From an uncultured Bacteroidales bacterium (GTDB lineage Bacteria; Bacteroidota; Bacteroidia; Bacteroidales; Muribaculaceae), in assembly GCA_902776955.1 (NCBI GenBank), contig CACYSG010000050.1:1-33458 (forward strand): 33,458 nucleotides of DNA, read 5' to 3'. The notes under the pieces are model-generated. The model ran no database searches. It was given only the letters and a program-made list of their open reading frames with translations, and was not told the DNA's origin. Shown here in pieces: positions 13,936 through 31,566 of the stretch. The first letter of the stretch is position 1; each line of letters starts with the position of its first letter. A program made the translations under genes and the position numbers.

Positions 13936-14721
13936 ATGGCAACATCAATTTTTGCACTTTTCAGTATCAAGGACCTGCTCGACATCCTGCTGGTGGCGAC
14001 GCTGCTGTTCTACCTCTACCGCACGATGAAGGATTCGGGCTCGCTCGACATCTTTGTCGGCGTGATGGCGTTTGTCGTCGCATGGGTAGTGATGTACAAG
14101 ATGATGGACATGAGGCTTATCGGCACCATCATGGACAAGTTCATCGATATCGGTCTGTTTATCTTGGTCATCTTGTTCCAGGACGAGATCAAACGCTTCC
14201 TCACCGAGCTGGGTTCGCGGCGCGGCCTCAAACTCTTTGAGAAAATCTTCAAGAGCAAGACCGAGACCGAGGAAGAGAAGAAATGGATCATGCCTGTCGT
14301 GTATGCTTGCATGAATTTGTCCAAGACCAAGACCGGTGCTCTCATCGTTGTGCAGCAGGGCATGCCGCTCACCGATTATGAGCGCACGGGTGATATAATC
14401 AATGCCGATATCAATTCCCGACTGATTGAGAACATCTTCTTCAAGAACAGCCCCCTGCATGATGGTGCCTTGATAATCTCGGGCAAAAAAATCATGAGCG
14501 CCGGTTGCATCCTGCCTGTGTCACACGACACCAATATACCGCGATACCTGGGACTGCGACATCGCTCGGCTAAGGGTATCGCCCAAGCTACCGACGCCAT
14601 CGCCATCGTGGTGAGCGAGGAGACAGGACGCATTTCCTATGCCCACAAGGGCGAACTTCACCTCAACCTGTCCAACACCGACCTCGAGCATGCCCTCGCA
14701 GCCCTCGTCGAAAAAGACTAA
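13936..14721 (+). CDS. cdaA: Membrane diadenylate cyclase CdaA
   Basis: 261 residues. CdaA makes cyclic di-AMP from two ATP, a messenger for turgor, potassium and envelope homeostasis. Three N-terminal membrane helices (about 12-27, 36-54 and 66-82) precede the DisA_N cyclase domain (about 115-255). Signature residues: DGA at 176-178 in NSPLHDGALIISG, and RHRSA at 208-212 in YLGLRHRSAKG. Both are intact, so the enzyme should be active. It follows folP by 10 bases. Its last codons, AAA GAC TAA, are the first element of a heptamer repeat array that runs to the next start codon. Confidence 0.95.
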   Translation: MATSIFALFSIKDLLDILLVATLLFYLYRTMKDSGSLDIFVGVMAFVVAWVVMYKMMDMRLIGTIMDKFIDIGLFILVILFQDEIKRFLTELGSRRGLKLFEKIFKSKTETEEEKKWIMPVVYACMNLSKTKTGALIVVQQGMPLTDYERTGDIINADINSRLIENIFFKNSPLHDGALIISGKKIMSAGCILPVSHDTNIPRYLGLRHRSAKGIAQATDAIAIVVSEETGRISYAHKGELHLNLSNTDLEHALAALVEKD

Positions 14722-14769
14722 AAGTCTAAAGTCTAAAGTCTAAAATCTAAAGTCTAAAGTCTAAAGTCT
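14720..14769 (+). repeat. Heptamer tandem array (AAAGTCT)n between cdaA and the DUF3109 gene
   Basis: Seven consecutive units: one 8-base unit (AAAAGTCT, 14720-14727), then six heptamers AAAGTCT with one variant AAAATCT (14742-14748). The array starts inside the cdaA stop codon (14719-14721) and ends exactly at the next ATG (14770). It occupies the entire intergenic space. Confidence 0.95.
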
Positions 14770-15351
14770 ATGTTTGATATTGACGGAACTCTGGTGAGCC
14801 TCGACCTGGTTGAGCGATTCTTCTGCTGTGACCTGGATACCTGCTTGGGTGCATGTTGCATTGAGGGGGATTCGGGAGCACCCTTGACTCAGCAAGAATA
14901 TCAGCGCCTCAAAGAGATTCTGCCCGAGATTTGGGACGACCTCCTGCCGCGGGCACAAGAACAAATCAAGGAGCACGGCGTGGCCTACTTTGATGTGGAA
15001 GGCGAGCTGGTGACTCAACTTGTCGACGGGGCTAACTGTGTGTTCACGACCTATGAGAGAGGAGGCATGTGCCTGTGTGCCATCGAGAGGGCCTATCGCG
15101 AGGGACGCATCAAATGGCGCAAGCCCATTTCCTGTTATCTCTATCCCGTGCGCATCAAGAAGTACCCCGGATATGAAGCGGTGAATTACGACAGGTGGAA
15201 AATCTGCAAGTGTGCCGAGGTGCTGGGACGCCGCGAGAAAATCCGACTTTACCAATTCCTCAAGGATCCACTCATCGAACGCTTTGGGCAGCAATGGTAT
15301 GACACGCTAGTTGCCAACTGCGAACTGTATATCAAAGAGTACCTCGAATAA
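14770..15351 (+). CDS. DUF3109 family cysteine-rich protein
   Basis: 193 residues, cytosolic. The family signature is complete: IDGTLVSLDLVERFFCCDLDTCLGACCIEGDSGAPL near the N-terminus, GMCLCAIERAYREG in the middle (about 98-111) and KPISCYLYPVRIKKYP (about 117-133). The spaced cysteines suggest a bound metal or Fe-S cluster, as in the related YkgJ/zinc-chelating families; no activity has been shown to my knowledge. The start is fixed by the family, which begins with exactly this segment. The ATG directly abuts a heptamer array in place of a normal leader, so it probably depends on cdaA transcription. Confidence 0.88.
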   Translation: MFDIDGTLVSLDLVERFFCCDLDTCLGACCIEGDSGAPLTQQEYQRLKEILPEIWDDLLPRAQEQIKEHGVAYFDVEGELVTQLVDGANCVFTTYERGGMCLCAIERAYREGRIKWRKPISCYLYPVRIKKYPGYEAVNYDRWKICKCAEVLGRREKIRLYQFLKDPLIERFGQQWYDTLVANCELYIKEYLE

Positions 15352-17311: not shown

Positions 17312-17724
17312 ATGGACTTGATTAAAGTTGCAGAACAAGCATTTGCTACAAACAAGCAGCACCCGCAGTTTTTCCCGGGTGACACAATCACGGTAGCATA
17401 CCGCATCAAGGAGGGTAACAAGGAGCGTATCCAATCACGGTAGCATACCGCATCAAGGAGGGTAACAAGGAGCGTATCCAGCAGTACCGTGGTGTGGTGA
17501 TTAAGATCGTCGGCGAGGGTGAGAAGAAGCGTTTCACCGTTCGCAAGATCAGTGACAACATCGGTGTTGAGCGTATTTTCCCGCTCGAGTCTCCGTTTAT
17601 CGACAGCATTACCATCAACAAGCATGGTAAGGTACGTCGCGCCAAGCTGTATTACCTGCGTGGTCTCACCGGTAAGAAGGCTCGCATCAAGGAGCGTCGC
17701 ATCATCAAGAAGGAAGAGGCCTAA
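17312..17724 (+). pseudogene. rplS: 50S ribosomal protein L19, frameshifted by an exact 47-bp tandem duplication
   Basis: From ATG 17312 the frame reads MDLIKVAEQAF, then [20 protein letters not shown], clearly L19, but stops at TAG 17441-17443 after 43 codons. The rest of L19 resumes in another frame from 17434 ([20 protein letters not shown]) to TAA 17722-17724, with the normal motifs [16 protein letters not shown] and [14 protein letters not shown]. Removing one copy of the 47-bp repeat at 17385-17480 restores a single 121-codon gene of normal length. L19 sits at the 30S-50S bridge and is essential or nearly so, so a fixed frameshift is implausible in a living cell; an assembly join error is the likelier cause. 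Promoter and terminator are intact. Confidence 0.93.
17385..17480 (+). repeat. 47-bp perfect tandem duplication inside rplS
   Basis: Copy 1 begins at 17385 and copy 2 at 17432, both with CAATCACGGTAGCATACCGC. Identity continues for 49 bases (17385-17433 equals 17432-17480). The period, 47, is not a multiple of three. Confidence 0.98.
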
Positions 17725-17767: not shown

Positions 17768-17801
17768 GGCCCGAGGCACAACGTGCCCCGGCCCTTTTTT
17801 T
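17768..17801 (+). terminator. Intrinsic terminator of rplS
   Basis: GGCAC (17775-17779) pairs with GTGCC (17783-17787) around AAC, extended by GGCC (17768-17771) with GGCC (17790-17793), and followed by seven T (17795-17801). Confidence 0.9.
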
Positions 17802-17830
17802 ACAATTAGCCAGCTCGTGCCAGCCTCGGT

Positions 17831-17913
17831 CTTACCTCGTCGGACATTGTCGGACCTTGTCAGACATTGTCCGACTAAGTCAGACTAAGTCGGACCAGGT
17901 CTGACCAAGGTCC
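17831..17913. repeat. Left array of palindromic decamers (GTCNGAC + 3-base spacer)
   Basis: About eight units in strict 10-base register: core GTC-N-GAC, spacers ATT, CTT, ATT, TAA, TAA, CAG, CAA. The core is itself a palindrome with a variable centre. Spacers are T-rich in the first half and A-rich in the second, so the whole array is an imperfect large palindrome. It ends with CCGGCCAATTCT, 10 bases before the stop of the four-helix-bundle gene. Confidence 0.92.
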
Positions 17914-17923
17914 GGCCAATTCT

Positions 17924-18490
17924 CTACTGGTCTTTGTCTTTGGGGGGATGTTGGTCGCGGTATTTCAAGCGGGCGCGAGTCATTTGCTCGCGAACACCTC
18001 CTTGTTCCAGGAACTGTACTTGTTGCTTTTCGATGAGACGCTCCAGCATGTGGGTTGCTTGGTGAATCAGTGTGATGCACAAGTTAGCGAGTTCTTCATC
18101 GTTCAAGCGGCTCATTAACTTGTGGTATTCCTTTTCAAAGACTTCGCTTCTCACATATTCCCTCATCTTGATGTATCGTTGATGGTTAGCGTCCCAGCGT
18201 TGTAGAGAACGCACCCTCAAGTAATCTTCATAGTCAATCAGCAGTTCTTCAAGGCTAGCTTTAGCGACGTTGGTCAACTTGATTTCGGTCTCGCGAGATG
18301 TGGTGGCAGCCTTACTCCCTTCTGCGATATTTTGCTTACCGCTACGGGCCGCTTGTACCATTTGGTCAATAGTGCGGTCAGGTTTGGTGAGGTAGGAGTG
18401 AGTGAAATGGTAAGTCAAGTCATAGATGATCTCAGTGATTTTGTAAACCTTCAAATTTCGGTATCCTCCCAAGGGCTGCAAGAATCCCAT
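17924..18490 (-). CDS. Four-helix-bundle protein (23S rRNA intervening-sequence-protein family, long form)
   Basis: 188 residues. The first 120 or so match the S23/IVP-like four-helix-bundle family: YRNLKVYKITEIIYDLTYHFT, then DRTIDQMVQAARSGKQNIAEGSKAATTSRETEIKLTNVAKASLEELLIDYEDYLR. Residues about 125-175 form an extra helical suffix seen in a subset of the family, and the tail is charged. The family includes proteins encoded in 23S rRNA inserts, and the same fold is used by Avd of diversity-generating retroelements; most members have no known job. No reverse transcriptase or rRNA is near. The gene occupies nearly all of the space between two decamer arrays of the same orientation (17831-17913 and 18541-18623), which suggests array and gene travel or act together. 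Confidence 0.85.
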   Translation of the reverse strand: MGFLQPLGGYRNLKVYKITEIIYDLTYHFTHSYLTKPDRTIDQMVQAARSGKQNIAEGSKAATTSRETEIKLTNVAKASLEELLIDYEDYLRVRSLQRWDANHQRYIKMREYVRSEVFEKEYHKLMSRLNDEELANLCITLIHQATHMLERLIEKQQVQFLEQGGVREQMTRARLKYRDQHPPKDKDQ

Positions 18491-18540
18491 AACAATAGCT
18501 AATTAGTAAAATAAAAACAATTCTCTTTCTCTCACTCTCG

Positions 18541-18623
18541 CCAGACGCCGTCCGACATCGTCCGACTTTGTCCGACTTTGTCCGACCAAGTCTGACCAAG
18601 TCCGACTCAGTCCGACGAATTCT
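18541..18623. repeat. Right array of palindromic decamers (GTCNGAC + 3-base spacer)
   Basis: Eight units in 10-base register, spacers GCC, ATC, TTT, TTT, CAA, CAA, TCA, GAA, with cores mostly GTCCGAC. The T-rich to A-rich spacer switch repeats that of the left array. It ends CCGACGAATTCT, matching the CCGGCCAATTCT end of the left array, so the two arrays are direct repeats flanking the gene. Confidence 0.92.
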
Positions 18624-18681
18624 GCTGCAAAGATACGATAATATCTTTTTTAATGCAAATTCTTAAATTGTTGTAAGAATT

Positions 18682-18712
18682 GTTGCGGTTTCAGAAATAA
18701 TGTGTAACTTTG
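18682..18712 (+). promoter_or_regulatory. Promoter of the acidic repeat protein gene
   Basis: -33 element GTTG (18682-18685), 19 bases, then -7 box TAACTTTG (18705-18712). The leader to ATG 18777 is about 58 bases. Confidence 0.6.
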
Positions 18713-18776: not shown

Positions 18777-19409
18777 ATGGACGAGGAAATCAAGAATGTT
18801 GAGGAAACCGCAGCCGAGGAAGTGAAGAACGAAGGCACCAACATCTTTGACCAGGTGAAGGAAATGCTTGGCGATGCAGCTAACGACAGCGCTGGCCTAT
18901 TCGATAAACTCAAAGGTGTGTTTGAGGGCAAGGAAGGCGAGCCGGGCTTCTTTGACAAAGCCAAGGAGATGCTTGAGGGCAAAGAAGGCGAAGCAGGTGT
19001 GCTCGACCAACTCAAGGAGATGCTTGACAAGGGCACTACAGCCGCTGGCGAGATGAGCCAGGACTTCCTGGAGAAAGCCAAGGCGATGTTTGATACCAAG
19101 GAGGGCGAACCGAGCCTCCTGGACAAAGCAAAAGAGATGTTTGGTGAGGGCGCTACAGCGGCCAGCGAGATGATGGACAAGGCTAAAGACTTTGTCGAGC
19201 AGGGCACAGCTGCCGCCACCGAAGTAGCCCAGGATTTAAGCCAAAAAGCTAAGGAAGCCTTTGAACCCAAGGAGGGCGAGCCCAGCATAATGGATAAAGC
19301 CAAAGACGCGCTGGACGATGCCGGCAAAGCGGCCGAAGGCGTCATGGACAAGGTGGAGGACTTCCTGAAGAACGCATTCGGCGGACCTAAGGACGAAGGC
19401 CAAGCCTGA
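18777..19409 (+). CDS. Acidic amphipathic-helix repeat protein (LEA-like)
   Basis: 210 residues, no signal peptide, no cysteine, almost entirely built from D, E, K, A, G, M and F. Four segments begin with the same motif: KEGEPGFFDKAKEML, KEGEAGVLDQLKEML, KEGEPSLLDKAKEMF and KEGEPSIMDKAKDAL, separated by helical stretches rich in AxxMxDKAKDF and TAAxEx. The pattern resembles group 3 late-embryogenesis-abundant and related stress proteins: disordered when soluble, helical on drying or on membranes. That likeness is compositional, not proof of homology. It has its own promoter and a strong hairpin behind it, so it is monocistronic. A desiccation, osmotic or stationary-phase protectant is a fair guess. 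Confidence 0.75.
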   Translation: MDEEIKNVEETAAEEVKNEGTNIFDQVKEMLGDAANDSAGLFDKLKGVFEGKEGEPGFFDKAKEMLEGKEGEAGVLDQLKEMLDKGTTAAGEMSQDFLEKAKAMFDTKEGEPSLLDKAKEMFGEGATAASEMMDKAKDFVEQGTAAATEVAQDLSQKAKEAFEPKEGEPSIMDKAKDALDDAGKAAEGVMDKVEDFLKNAFGGPKDEGQA

Positions 19410-20398: not shown

Positions 20399-20492
20399 TT
20401 TAGCCTTTAGCCTCTAGCCTTTAGCTTTTAGCCCTAACCGCTAATGGCTAATGGCTAACGGCTCTCTATCCTTTAACCTTTAACCTTTAACC
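20399..20492 (-). repeat. Heptamer tandem arrays between aguA and aguB
   Basis: Plus-strand units: TTTAGCC with variants (20399-20433), CTAACCG/CTAATGG/CTAACGG (20434-20461), a 10-base interruption, then TTTAACC three times (20472-20492). In the direction of the genes these read GGTTAAA and GGCTAAA. The aguA stop TAA (20489-20487) lies within the first unit, and the array ends about 14 bases before the aguB ATG. Confidence 0.93.
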
Positions 20493-21521
20493 TTTTCTAT
20501 GTATCTGCATTGTGGCGCAGTGCAGCGAACCGTGCTGGCAGATGAGTGGACGGCAGTCAATCCCTACCACTTTACGGCCGGGAAATGCTTGGCCGATGAG
20601 CTGGCACGCCTTGATGTCCTTGTCGGGCTGACCGTAAAGGGGGACAAGCACCTGATGGTTTGTTATCAGGAAGTTGGCATAGGTGGCCGGCAGTCGTGAG
20701 ATCTCATCATAGCAGGCGTCAGGCAATGGCAGTTTGATTAACTGATAGTGGTTGCCATCGACATCGGTCATGTTCTTAAGTTCCTGCTCCATCTTCATCA
20801 ATGACTCGAAGTGTTCGTCCTCGGGGTCGTCACAACCGTTGTAGAGAATGATGCCGCCGGGGGCAAACCGCGCCAGTGTGTCGATGTGCCCGTCGGTGTC
20901 GTCACCAGCGAGAGCACCGTTTTCCAGCCACAGCATCTTGATGCAAACCAGTCGGTCGAGCAGCACCTGCTCGAGTTGTTCCCGCGAGAGGGCGTCGTTG
21001 CGGTTGGGGGCGGTAAGGCACGAGGTCGTGGTCATTACCGTGCCGCGTCCGTCGGTTTCAATGGAACCGCCCTCAAGCACCAGGTCCCGGCAGTTGAGCA
21101 ACGGCATGTTGAACAGACCTTTCTCGTGGAGCCGTGACGTGACCAGGTTGTCACAGTCGGCCGCAAATTTCATTCCCCAAGCGTTGAACGTGAAGTCGGT
21201 GAGGACCATGCGACCGTCCTTGTACACGGTGATGGGGCCATAGTCGCGCACCCAGGTGTCGTTAGTGGGCAACTCAACGATATTGATGCGTTCCCAGTCC
21301 ACATCCGTTCCCAGTGCGTCCCTCACTTCGTCGGCGTCAGGGGCGACAATGATAAGCCGCTCGTCGTCCATGAGGATAGCACGGGCTATCTCAACGTAAC
21401 AAGCCGTCACCTCGTCGAGCATATAAGCCCAGTCGGTGCCGGCGTGTGGCCATGCAATGAGAATGCCTTCCTGACAATCCCATTCGGCAGCAAAGCTGCG
21501 ATTTCTTGTTGATGAAAACAT
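20487..21521 (-). CDS. aguA: Agmatine deiminase
   Basis: 344 residues. AguA converts agmatine to N-carbamoylputrescine and ammonia. Features of the guanidino-group-modifying fold: WPHAGTDWAYMLDEV (24-38), NDTWVRDYGP (87-96), LEGGSIETDG (149-158), catalytic His212 in DTDGHIDTLARF and nucleophile Cys335 in GSLHCATMQ. All catalytic positions are present. ATG 21521 gives the normal length. The C-terminus HRKG ends in AAA GGT TAA, which is the first unit of the heptamer array behind it. Arginine decarboxylase, the source of agmatine, is not in the window. Localisation is cytosolic. Confidence 0.95.
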   Translation of the reverse strand: MFSSTRNRSFAAEWDCQEGILIAWPHAGTDWAYMLDEVTACYVEIARAILMDDERLIIVAPDADEVRDALGTDVDWERINIVELPTNDTWVRDYGPITVYKDGRMVLTDFTFNAWGMKFAADCDNLVTSRLHEKGLFNMPLLNCRDLVLEGGSIETDGRGTVMTTTSCLTAPNRNDALSREQLEQVLLDRLVCIKMLWLENGALAGDDTDGHIDTLARFAPGGIILYNGCDDPEDEHFESLMKMEQELKNMTDVDGNHYQLIKLPLPDACYDEISRLPATYANFLITNHQVLVPLYGQPDKDIKACQLIGQAFPGRKVVGIDCRPLICQHGSLHCATMQIHRKG

Positions 21522-31330: not shown

Positions 31331-31381
31331 TATATATGTACAATTATAGATGTACACCCCCATCCAATACCTTCCCAACCA

Positions 31382-31444
31382 TTATCTCTTATCTATTAAC
31401 TATTAACTCTTATCTCTTATCTATTATCTATTATCTCCTAACTC
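31382..31444 (+). repeat. Heptamer tandem array (TTATCTA/TTAACTC type) between folC and degP
   Basis: Nine heptamers in unbroken register: TTATCTC, TTATCTA, TTAACTA, TTAACTC, TTATCTC, TTATCTA, TTATCTA, TTATCTC, CTAACTC. They are degenerate at positions 4 and 7. The rest of the 31232-31675 gap holds the folC hairpin, AT-rich sequence and the degP promoter. Confidence 0.92.
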
Positions 31445-31566
31445 TCTCCCCCTTGTCACCTGACAGTGACAATGTGTCATTATTTGTTATAAAAGGGAGC
31501 TCCATTGTAAAACTAATTAAAAAGATGCATATTGGCTATTAATTAATTTTAAAATCCAGACAATAT

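Follow-up and report, generated by a model that had tools for sequence, protein, structure and literature searches.

Short tandem repeats framing S23/IVP-type four-helix-bundle genes point to a candidate kind of mobile repeat element in Bacteroidota

A gene for an S23/IVP-type four-helix-bundle protein in an uncultured Bacteroidales bacterium (Muribaculaceae) is framed by two arrays of a short palindromic unit, GTCNGAC plus a three-base spacer, and many relatives of this gene are framed by arrays of units of their own. Across these loci we observe that arrays frame the gene, that its two flanks share one unit, that unit length follows the build of the protein, that unit classes fit the protein tree, that the insertion site is empty in relatives, that gene and arrays change jointly at another site, and that array copies exist away from any such gene. 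Taken together, the framed loci point to an unrecognized kind of mobile repeat element. The best explanation, which we hold to be rather probable on this sequence evidence, is that the gene and its arrays together make up a mobile cassette, the protein of which would recognize, and thereby spread with, its own unit.

The stretch of DNA analyzed, here called the window, comprises 33,458 nucleotides and is contig C50 of a draft genome of 3.23 Mb that is about 90% complete (G000). Its relevant features are the following:

17924..18490, minus strand: gene of 188 aa, with an S23/IVP-like four-helix bundle at aa 14-84 and a C-terminal TIGR04258 suffix at aa 131-178
17957..18100, minus strand: part of this gene coding for the suffix domain (TIGR04258; 82.3 bits, cut-off 40)
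17829..17916, no strand: downstream array, with seven exact GTCNGAC+3 units at 17839-17905, a degenerate GTCTTAC at 17829 and an out-of-register core-like stretch at the right end
18540..18616, no strand: upstream array, with a degenerate GCCAGAC at 18540 and seven exact GTCNGAC+3 units at 18550-18616
17784..18694, no strand: cassette stretch of 911 bp with the gene and both arrays, missing in relative G007, which has 155 bp between the same neighbors
17313..17724, plus strand: left neighbor rplS (ribosomal protein L19), which marks the insertion site and is disturbed by a 47-bp duplication in this assembly
18777..19409, plus strand: right neighbor gene, with a PF14013 match at its C-terminus; its leader lies close behind rplS in cassette-less relatives
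14721..14770, no strand: gene-less heptamer array AAAGTCT, the unit (as rotation and reverse complement) of a plain S23-type gene of the same genome (L001)
31382..31445, no strand: gene-less heptamer array TTATCTC, an exact match to the unit framing another plain S23-type gene of the same genome (L003)

Besides the heptamer arrays at 14721-14770 and 31377-31445, a further intergenic one was seen at 20399-20495. The duplication in rplS is in tandem (17385-17480) and its length is not a multiple of three; as rplS should be essential, a mistake in the assembly is the probable cause.

In the window, 14 pairs of neighboring GTCNGAC cores are found with up to two mismatches, 12 of them exact, whereas 100 dinucleotide shuffles gave 1.23 on average and never more than 5. 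The initial annotation, made from the window sequence, described about eight units per array; the 10-base register holds, and the count comes down to seven exact units and one degenerate unit, hence not quite eight. The reported distances from the gene are right, with arrays about 8-18 bp past the stop codon and about 50-60 bp ahead of the start. A described switch from T-rich to A-rich spacers is visible in both window arrays but weak across 22 GTCNGAC arrays from seven genomes (mean T minus A of +0.38 in the left halves and -0.20 in the right halves, 55 spacers each). The hexamer AATTCT does occur at the edges of both arrays in the window, as noted. The closest orthologous loci, L121 and L122, lack it where their arrays end, so that the boundary is not conserved.

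A structure model places the window protein in the S23/IVP fold, in line with the first assignment, and the family profiles are divided. The protein scores 29.3 bits with PF05635, under the gathering score of 33.8, and 29.2 bits with TIGR02436, over the cut-off of 24, and it passes TIGR04258 (four helix bundle suffix; 82.3 bits against 40); the sole other profile match is a weak one to NF008912. An AlphaFold2 model built on a 64-row alignment is all-helical (pLDDT 90.2, pTM 0.84). Foldseek places 2gsc_B and 2rld_E at the top of its matches, each with a probability of 1.00 and with E values of just 0.012 and 0.13, respectively. Both are structures of the S23 family (2GSC is Xcc0516, 2RLD is BT_0352) and are the closest solved folds to the model; a search of the PDB by sequence profile gave no match. 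A TIGR04258-like subfamily carries a C-terminal topoisomerase-type DNA-binding zinc ribbon (PF01396, over the Pfam cut-off in two of the three proteins scanned), which points to DNA as the probable target. Loci of this zinc-ribbon subfamily (L205-L217) were seen, as judged by eye, to adjoin 9-bp arrays with a TCGA core.

We then surveyed the flanks of genes with and without the suffix, referred to as suffix-type and plain. The suffix-type sample contains 150 usable loci of 154 (L004 was dropped for an in-frame stop, L041 for a broken frame, L033 and L180 as truncated). It draws on the genomes in which a search for TIGR04258 found the domain (see below) and on named genomes, from which the best 80 of at least 557 loci were taken, in Bacteroidota such as Muribaculaceae, Prevotella, Porphyromonas, Alloprevotella and Capnocytophaga. 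Some genomes are included twice from two collections (e.g. L014/L121), and such duplicates are handled by clustering at 90% identity. A separate set of 20 loci (L205-L224), not counted among the 150, was inspected by eye, and 18 of these are included in the protein tree. The plain PF05635 sample (n=88) consists of 72 loci from Bacteroidota (three from the window's genome and 69 picked among the matches listed, by score and convenience and not by their flanks) and 16 plasmid loci taken from 27 records (cyanobacteria, Gemmatirosa and Azospirillum).

In the window's genome, every one of the five TIGR04258 genes is flanked on one or both sides by an array of 9- or 10-bp units, and the unit differs from gene to gene; the domain is present in 51 of the 101 genomes searched, this one included. 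Under a strict threshold (99.9% of shuffles), a short-period array flanks at least one side of the gene at 117 of the 150 suffix loci, with a period of 9 or 10 in 116 of the 117, and 33 loci have none, counts that come from draft genomes and from a test that misses degenerate arrays and is blind to arrays lost at contig ends. After 90% clustering, 98 of 125 representatives carry an array (period 9 in 87, 10 in ten and 11 in one) and 27 none. When the 150-bp flanks are compared with themselves, mean similarity is highest at a shift of 9 (16.0 upstream and 15.8 downstream, against 3.7 in shuffled sequence); a shift of 10 gives a lesser peak, and harmonics appear at 18 and 20. Of 295 target flanks, 173 hold an array of period 9 or 10, whereas none of the 295 shuffled flanks does; among three-prime flanks of other long open frames in these loci, the figure is 18 of 336. 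Three loci (L076, L079 and L080) show 34-35-bp repeats straight after the stop codon; these repeats end in CGCTGA and look like tandem copies of the gene's 3' end.

Plain genes are framed by shorter units. The three plain PF05635 genes of the window's genome, which lack the suffix, have 7-bp arrays with a different unit each. In the whole plain sample, 59 of 88 loci carry an array, of period 7 in 46, 8 in 10, 9 in two and 10 in one, and 29 carry none; clustering at 90% leaves 56 of 80 representatives with an array (44, 9, 2 and 1 for periods 7, 8, 9 and 10) and 24 without. The control is weaker here, with arrays in 57 of 142 target flanks and 10 of 80 other flanks (p 1.5e-5). The period differs between the suffix-type and plain samples (Fisher p 1e-42). 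As judged from these loci, unit length tracks protein build, plain bundles having units of 7 and less often 8 bp, and proteins with the suffix having units of 9 bp, or 10 bp in the window. The same figures dispose of the earlier argument that a 10-base period places every core on one face of B-DNA, because the units of most suffix-type relatives are 9 bp and those of plain relatives 7 bp.

Not only the length but also the unit itself follows the protein. Between the two flanks of one suffix gene, the mean unit similarity is 0.56, compared to 0.059 between different loci (n=52; 0 of 2000 permutations), and for plain genes the corresponding values are 0.55 and 0.015 (n=35; 0 of 2000 permutations). 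When unit classes are placed on the protein tree (FastTree; 91 of 162 rows labeled and 71 unlabeled, with the labels CTATA and ATAAG partly one unit), 23 changes are required, against a mean of 64.4 for shuffled labels, none of 200 shuffles being as low. GTCNGAC or close forms also occur, at 9-bp spacing, beside relatives in Prevotella ihumii, Porphyromonas and Alloprevotella. This co-variation of unit and protein suggests that the window protein binds GTCNGAC; part of it may come from flanks inherited together with the gene.

Comparison of the locus between genomes shows both presence and absence of the cassette. Six relatives have no cassette between rplS and the gene at 18777, the gap measuring 155 bp in G007 (L316) against 911 bp in the window, about 110-165 bp in L320, L321, L322 and L328, and about 405 bp in L318. 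Among the 20 relatives read there, no GTCNGAC pair lies within 260 bp 3' of rplS. The near relatives L121 and L122 also have the cassette at this site, which suggests that it probably entered once in the clade they form with the window's genome. Two of these 20 (L325 and L331) have gene-less heptamer arrays just 3' of rplS, at the spot that the cassette occupies in the window, the array of L331 being an inverted pair; the spot may thus attract repeats as such.

At another site, gene and arrays differ jointly. The loci L007 and L021 have common flanks of 859 bp (87.8% identical) and 918 bp (84.3%), between which L007 has one gene with CCAATTAGT arrays, and L021 a 52%-identical gene in the opposite direction with CCTTAAAGA arrays. 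On one side, the common sequence of both loci runs almost up to the arrays, leaving a gap of about 15 bp at most; on the other, this is so in L007 alone, the array of L021 being preceded by an unrelated stretch of about 0.58 kb that appears to be non-coding. This is the one pair of loci in which different cassettes share both flanks. Among locus pairs that share a flank, unit labels differ in 26 of 126, of which at least one (CTATA/ATAAG) may be one unit. The ruvB site holds a CCTTA-class cassette in some genomes and a CTAGA-class cassette in others. Upstream of ruvB, a repeated landing place with various cassette classes was seen (L069, L070, L074, L006, L024, L030, L031, L034 and L046). Further afield, plain plasmid genes sit between genes within type I-D and III-B cas operons and among ribonucleotide reductase genes, one suffix gene stands between hsdS and an hsdR-like gene, and a plain Azospirillum gene (L265) forms an intervening sequence within a 23S rRNA gene, with inverted short end repeats visible by eye that fall under the strict threshold. 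That gene and arrays form one unit, as the initial annotation proposed, is supported by arrays at paralogues and orthologues alike, by the empty site in relatives and by the joint difference at one other site.

These locations bear on an account in which the arrays are operators: the protein would bind its own unit solely to control its own gene, perhaps its neighbors or the local shape of the DNA, the scattered arrays would be further regulatory sites, and nothing would spread them. Arrays do often lie directly before the start and after the stop, half-sites are kept while spacers drift, and the unit follows the protein, all of which favors operators. Yet an array past the stop codon is superfluous for this role, and the empty site in relatives, the joint change of gene and arrays at one site and the insertion-like places (the rRNA gene, the plasmid cas operons and the gap between hsdS and the hsdR-like gene) all speak against it. 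We consider operators an unlikely explanation.

The anatomy of the unit bears on recognition in DNA and on pairing in RNA. Over 145 GTCNGAC units, a set biased toward kept half-sites because it was chosen by exact cores, the middle base N carries 0.05 bit and the half-sites GTC and GAC are retained. Complementarity of the N bases across an array is 0.21, below the 0.37 expected, and each window array, folded alone, is matched or bettered in energy by 339 and 333, respectively, of 500 unit permutations. The idea that selection in the window arrays acts on a dyad or hairpin was accordingly discarded. A free middle base, the lack of pairing across the array and a fold no better than permuted together suit recognition of single palindromic units in DNA, which appears to fit better than one long hairpin.

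The same observations weigh on the view that the arrays act as RNA stems, as in intervening sequences of rRNA genes, where arrays would pair in the transcript and be cut by RNase III, so that insertion does little harm, and pairing would keep the repeats. Of the 36 plain loci with two-sided arrays, 32 have them inverted (same direction in two, unrelated in two), the plain gene in the Azospirillum 23S rRNA gene has its inverted end repeats, and the intervening sequence of Coxiella, with heptamers ahead of its S23 gene, is cut by RNase III according to the available part of its description (PMC4990558). Two-sided suffix arrays, however, mostly run in the same direction (35 of 62, with 12 inverted, 12 ambiguous and three unrelated), and neither the fold of each window array alone nor the N bases within an array favor pairing. 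As a general explanation, RNA stems seem improbable to us; given the inverted plain arrays and the rRNA case, such a role is possible for plain members.

Returning to the cassette reading, copies of the arrays away from the gene were counted in 61 genomes. Four-unit GTCNGAC arrays are present in six of the 61, and arrays away from the gene in four of five genomes with a gene of the clade (at least 66% identity) versus two of 56 without (p 1.4e-4); the window's genome has four such four-unit arrays away from the gene. Gene classes for the next two units were judged from the flanks of fetched loci, among the match places listed: CTCNGAG arrays occur in four of four genomes with the gene versus eight of 57 without (p 9.5e-4), and TCTAGA arrays in six of six versus 19 of 55 (p 0.003, the gene's own arrays included), the TCTAGA link being not significant within genus (p 0.15). 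For AACGGA, arrays away from the gene are found in one of five genomes with the gene and three of 56 without, which is not significant (p 0.30). The array-gene link is therefore clear for two of the four units examined, weak for one and absent for one. Arrays common across genomes without a link to the gene had been named as evidence against the initial proposal; the GTCNGAC arrays are linked (four of five versus two of 56), whereas other units abound in genomes in which no matching gene was seen. The window's genome itself has 63 TCTAGA and 38 AACGGA matches and five suffix genes, none in those classes, which shows that arrays can exist gene-free; they can persist without the gene, perhaps for long.

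Heptamer arrays were compared in the same way. Of 14 picked by hand from array listings, six are the exact unit of a plain gene of the window's genome and nine lie within one mismatch of one, compared to 6.3% for a random heptamer. The TAACTGA heptamer, described in the accessible portion of PMC4679880, behaves otherwise in viral contigs: 104 stretches have three units, none of them with an S23-type gene within 150 bp and one with such a gene anywhere, so that a link of this heptamer to S23-type genes was rejected there (0 of 104). The plain S23/IVP family as a whole gave one short match in the viral contigs. In one of them (L352, 2420-2930), TAACTGA arrays about 430 bp apart bracket another small open reading frame with no S23-type match, and arrays of the same spacing, as judged by spacing, are found in L354, L367, L381, L412 and L419.

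That the arrays are independent satellites or soft landing sites, into which genes merely insert, has in our estimate about as slim a chance as RNA stems: many genomes do have arrays and no matching gene, 7-bp arrays also adjoin other open frames (10 of 80 control flanks), and gene-less heptamer arrays occupy the rplS site in two relatives, but unit length follows protein build, the unit follows the protein clade, the 20 relatives read 3' of rplS have no GTCNGAC pair there, and arrays change together with the gene at one site.

We hypothesize the following mechanism for the mobile cassette. The family would consist of an S23/IVP-type bundle gene, in the window with a TIGR04258 suffix, framed by arrays of its own unit. 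The protein, which probably forms a ring as its solved relatives do, would read the DNA unit one repeat at a time, and this recognition would spread, lengthen or keep the arrays, with which the cassette would travel; gene-less arrays would be non-autonomous copies or left-overs. Because the protein has no known catalytic site, a host enzyme would have to cut and copy, be it from replication, from recombination or a reverse transcriptase. A wider proposal, which we put forward tentatively and rate below even, is that S23/IVP proteins are repeat-setting in general: each ring would read units of one set length, 7 bp where the bundle stands alone and 9-10 bp where the suffix is added, and would thereby make, spread or keep the arrays.

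If true, these loci would represent a new class of protein-paired satellite element. This would account for the origin of many unexplained tandem repeats with 7-, 9- or 10-bp units in Bacteroidota, in some cyanobacteria and perhaps in Xanthomonas, and would give a role to the protein encoded in a selfish rRNA-gene insert that has long been known. Intergenic heptamer tandem repeats of bacteria are described without an origin in the literature examined, as far as the available parts extend (PMC4692102, PMC4679880). The rule that ties unit length to build and unit to clade makes both the function of S23/IVP proteins and the origin of the heptamers directly testable by binding assays and strain comparisons.

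Among known systems, intervening sequences of rRNA genes with an S23/IVP gene (Leptospira, Coxiella, Alphaproteobacteria) share with the window the PF05635 fold and family and a gene framed by repeats. The window cassette differs in that it lies between rplS and a protein gene and not in rRNA, its unit is 10 and not 7 bp, it has the suffix domain and its arrays are not simply inverted. For Coxiella, the part of the source available reports variable heptamers ahead of the S23 gene, terms the insert a selfish element and the origin of such elements unclear, and calls S23/IVP a family without known function (PMC4990558); the crystal structure 2GSC dates from 2006. IVP genes have also been reported from cas loci (PMC3936711) and from rRNA inserts of CPR bacteria (PMC11270868), both according to partial texts. 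Heptamer repeats of Xanthomonas, Nostoc and Beggiatoaceae resemble the plain-type arrays, being 7-bp tandem units between genes. Xanthomonas has 70-75 inverted pairs per genome (PMC4692102), and in the accessible sections these heptamers (PMC4692102 for Xanthomonas and Nostoc, PMC4679880 for Beggiatoaceae) are described without a partner protein of the S23/IVP family.

PF05635 also resembles Avd of diversity-generating retroelements, with a structural match between 4DWL and 2GSC in the available part of the report (PMC10053308). The window locus is unlike such retroelements in that a profile search of six neighboring proteins found no reverse transcriptase. Porphyromonas gingivalis carries the BrickBuilt MITEs. 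They are mobile elements of a Bacteroidales species with minisatellite tandem repeats, and the accessible part of their description makes no link to a four-helix-bundle gene (PMC4596501). Our literature search found no paper that ties arrays of the present kind to the S23/IVP family, save for the heptamers ahead of the rRNA-insert gene of Coxiella, and none under TIGR04258 or its name.

RAYT proteins, the partners of REP and REPIN sequences, belong to the HUH class. REP elements are single hairpins, whereas the window-type cassettes have head-to-tail arrays, and RAYT is a tyrosine transposase (PMC3116915), whereas the protein here is a four-helix bundle without known catalytic residues. The likeness, on the available part of the REP/RAYT account, is that a gene lies near its own short repeats, that gene-less copies are scattered and that repeat type follows protein type (PMC3116915); a gene flanked by cognate repeats together with scattered copies is found here as well. 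If the S23/IVP protein does set its repeats, selfish repeat systems would have arrived at a second solution, unrelated to RAYT.
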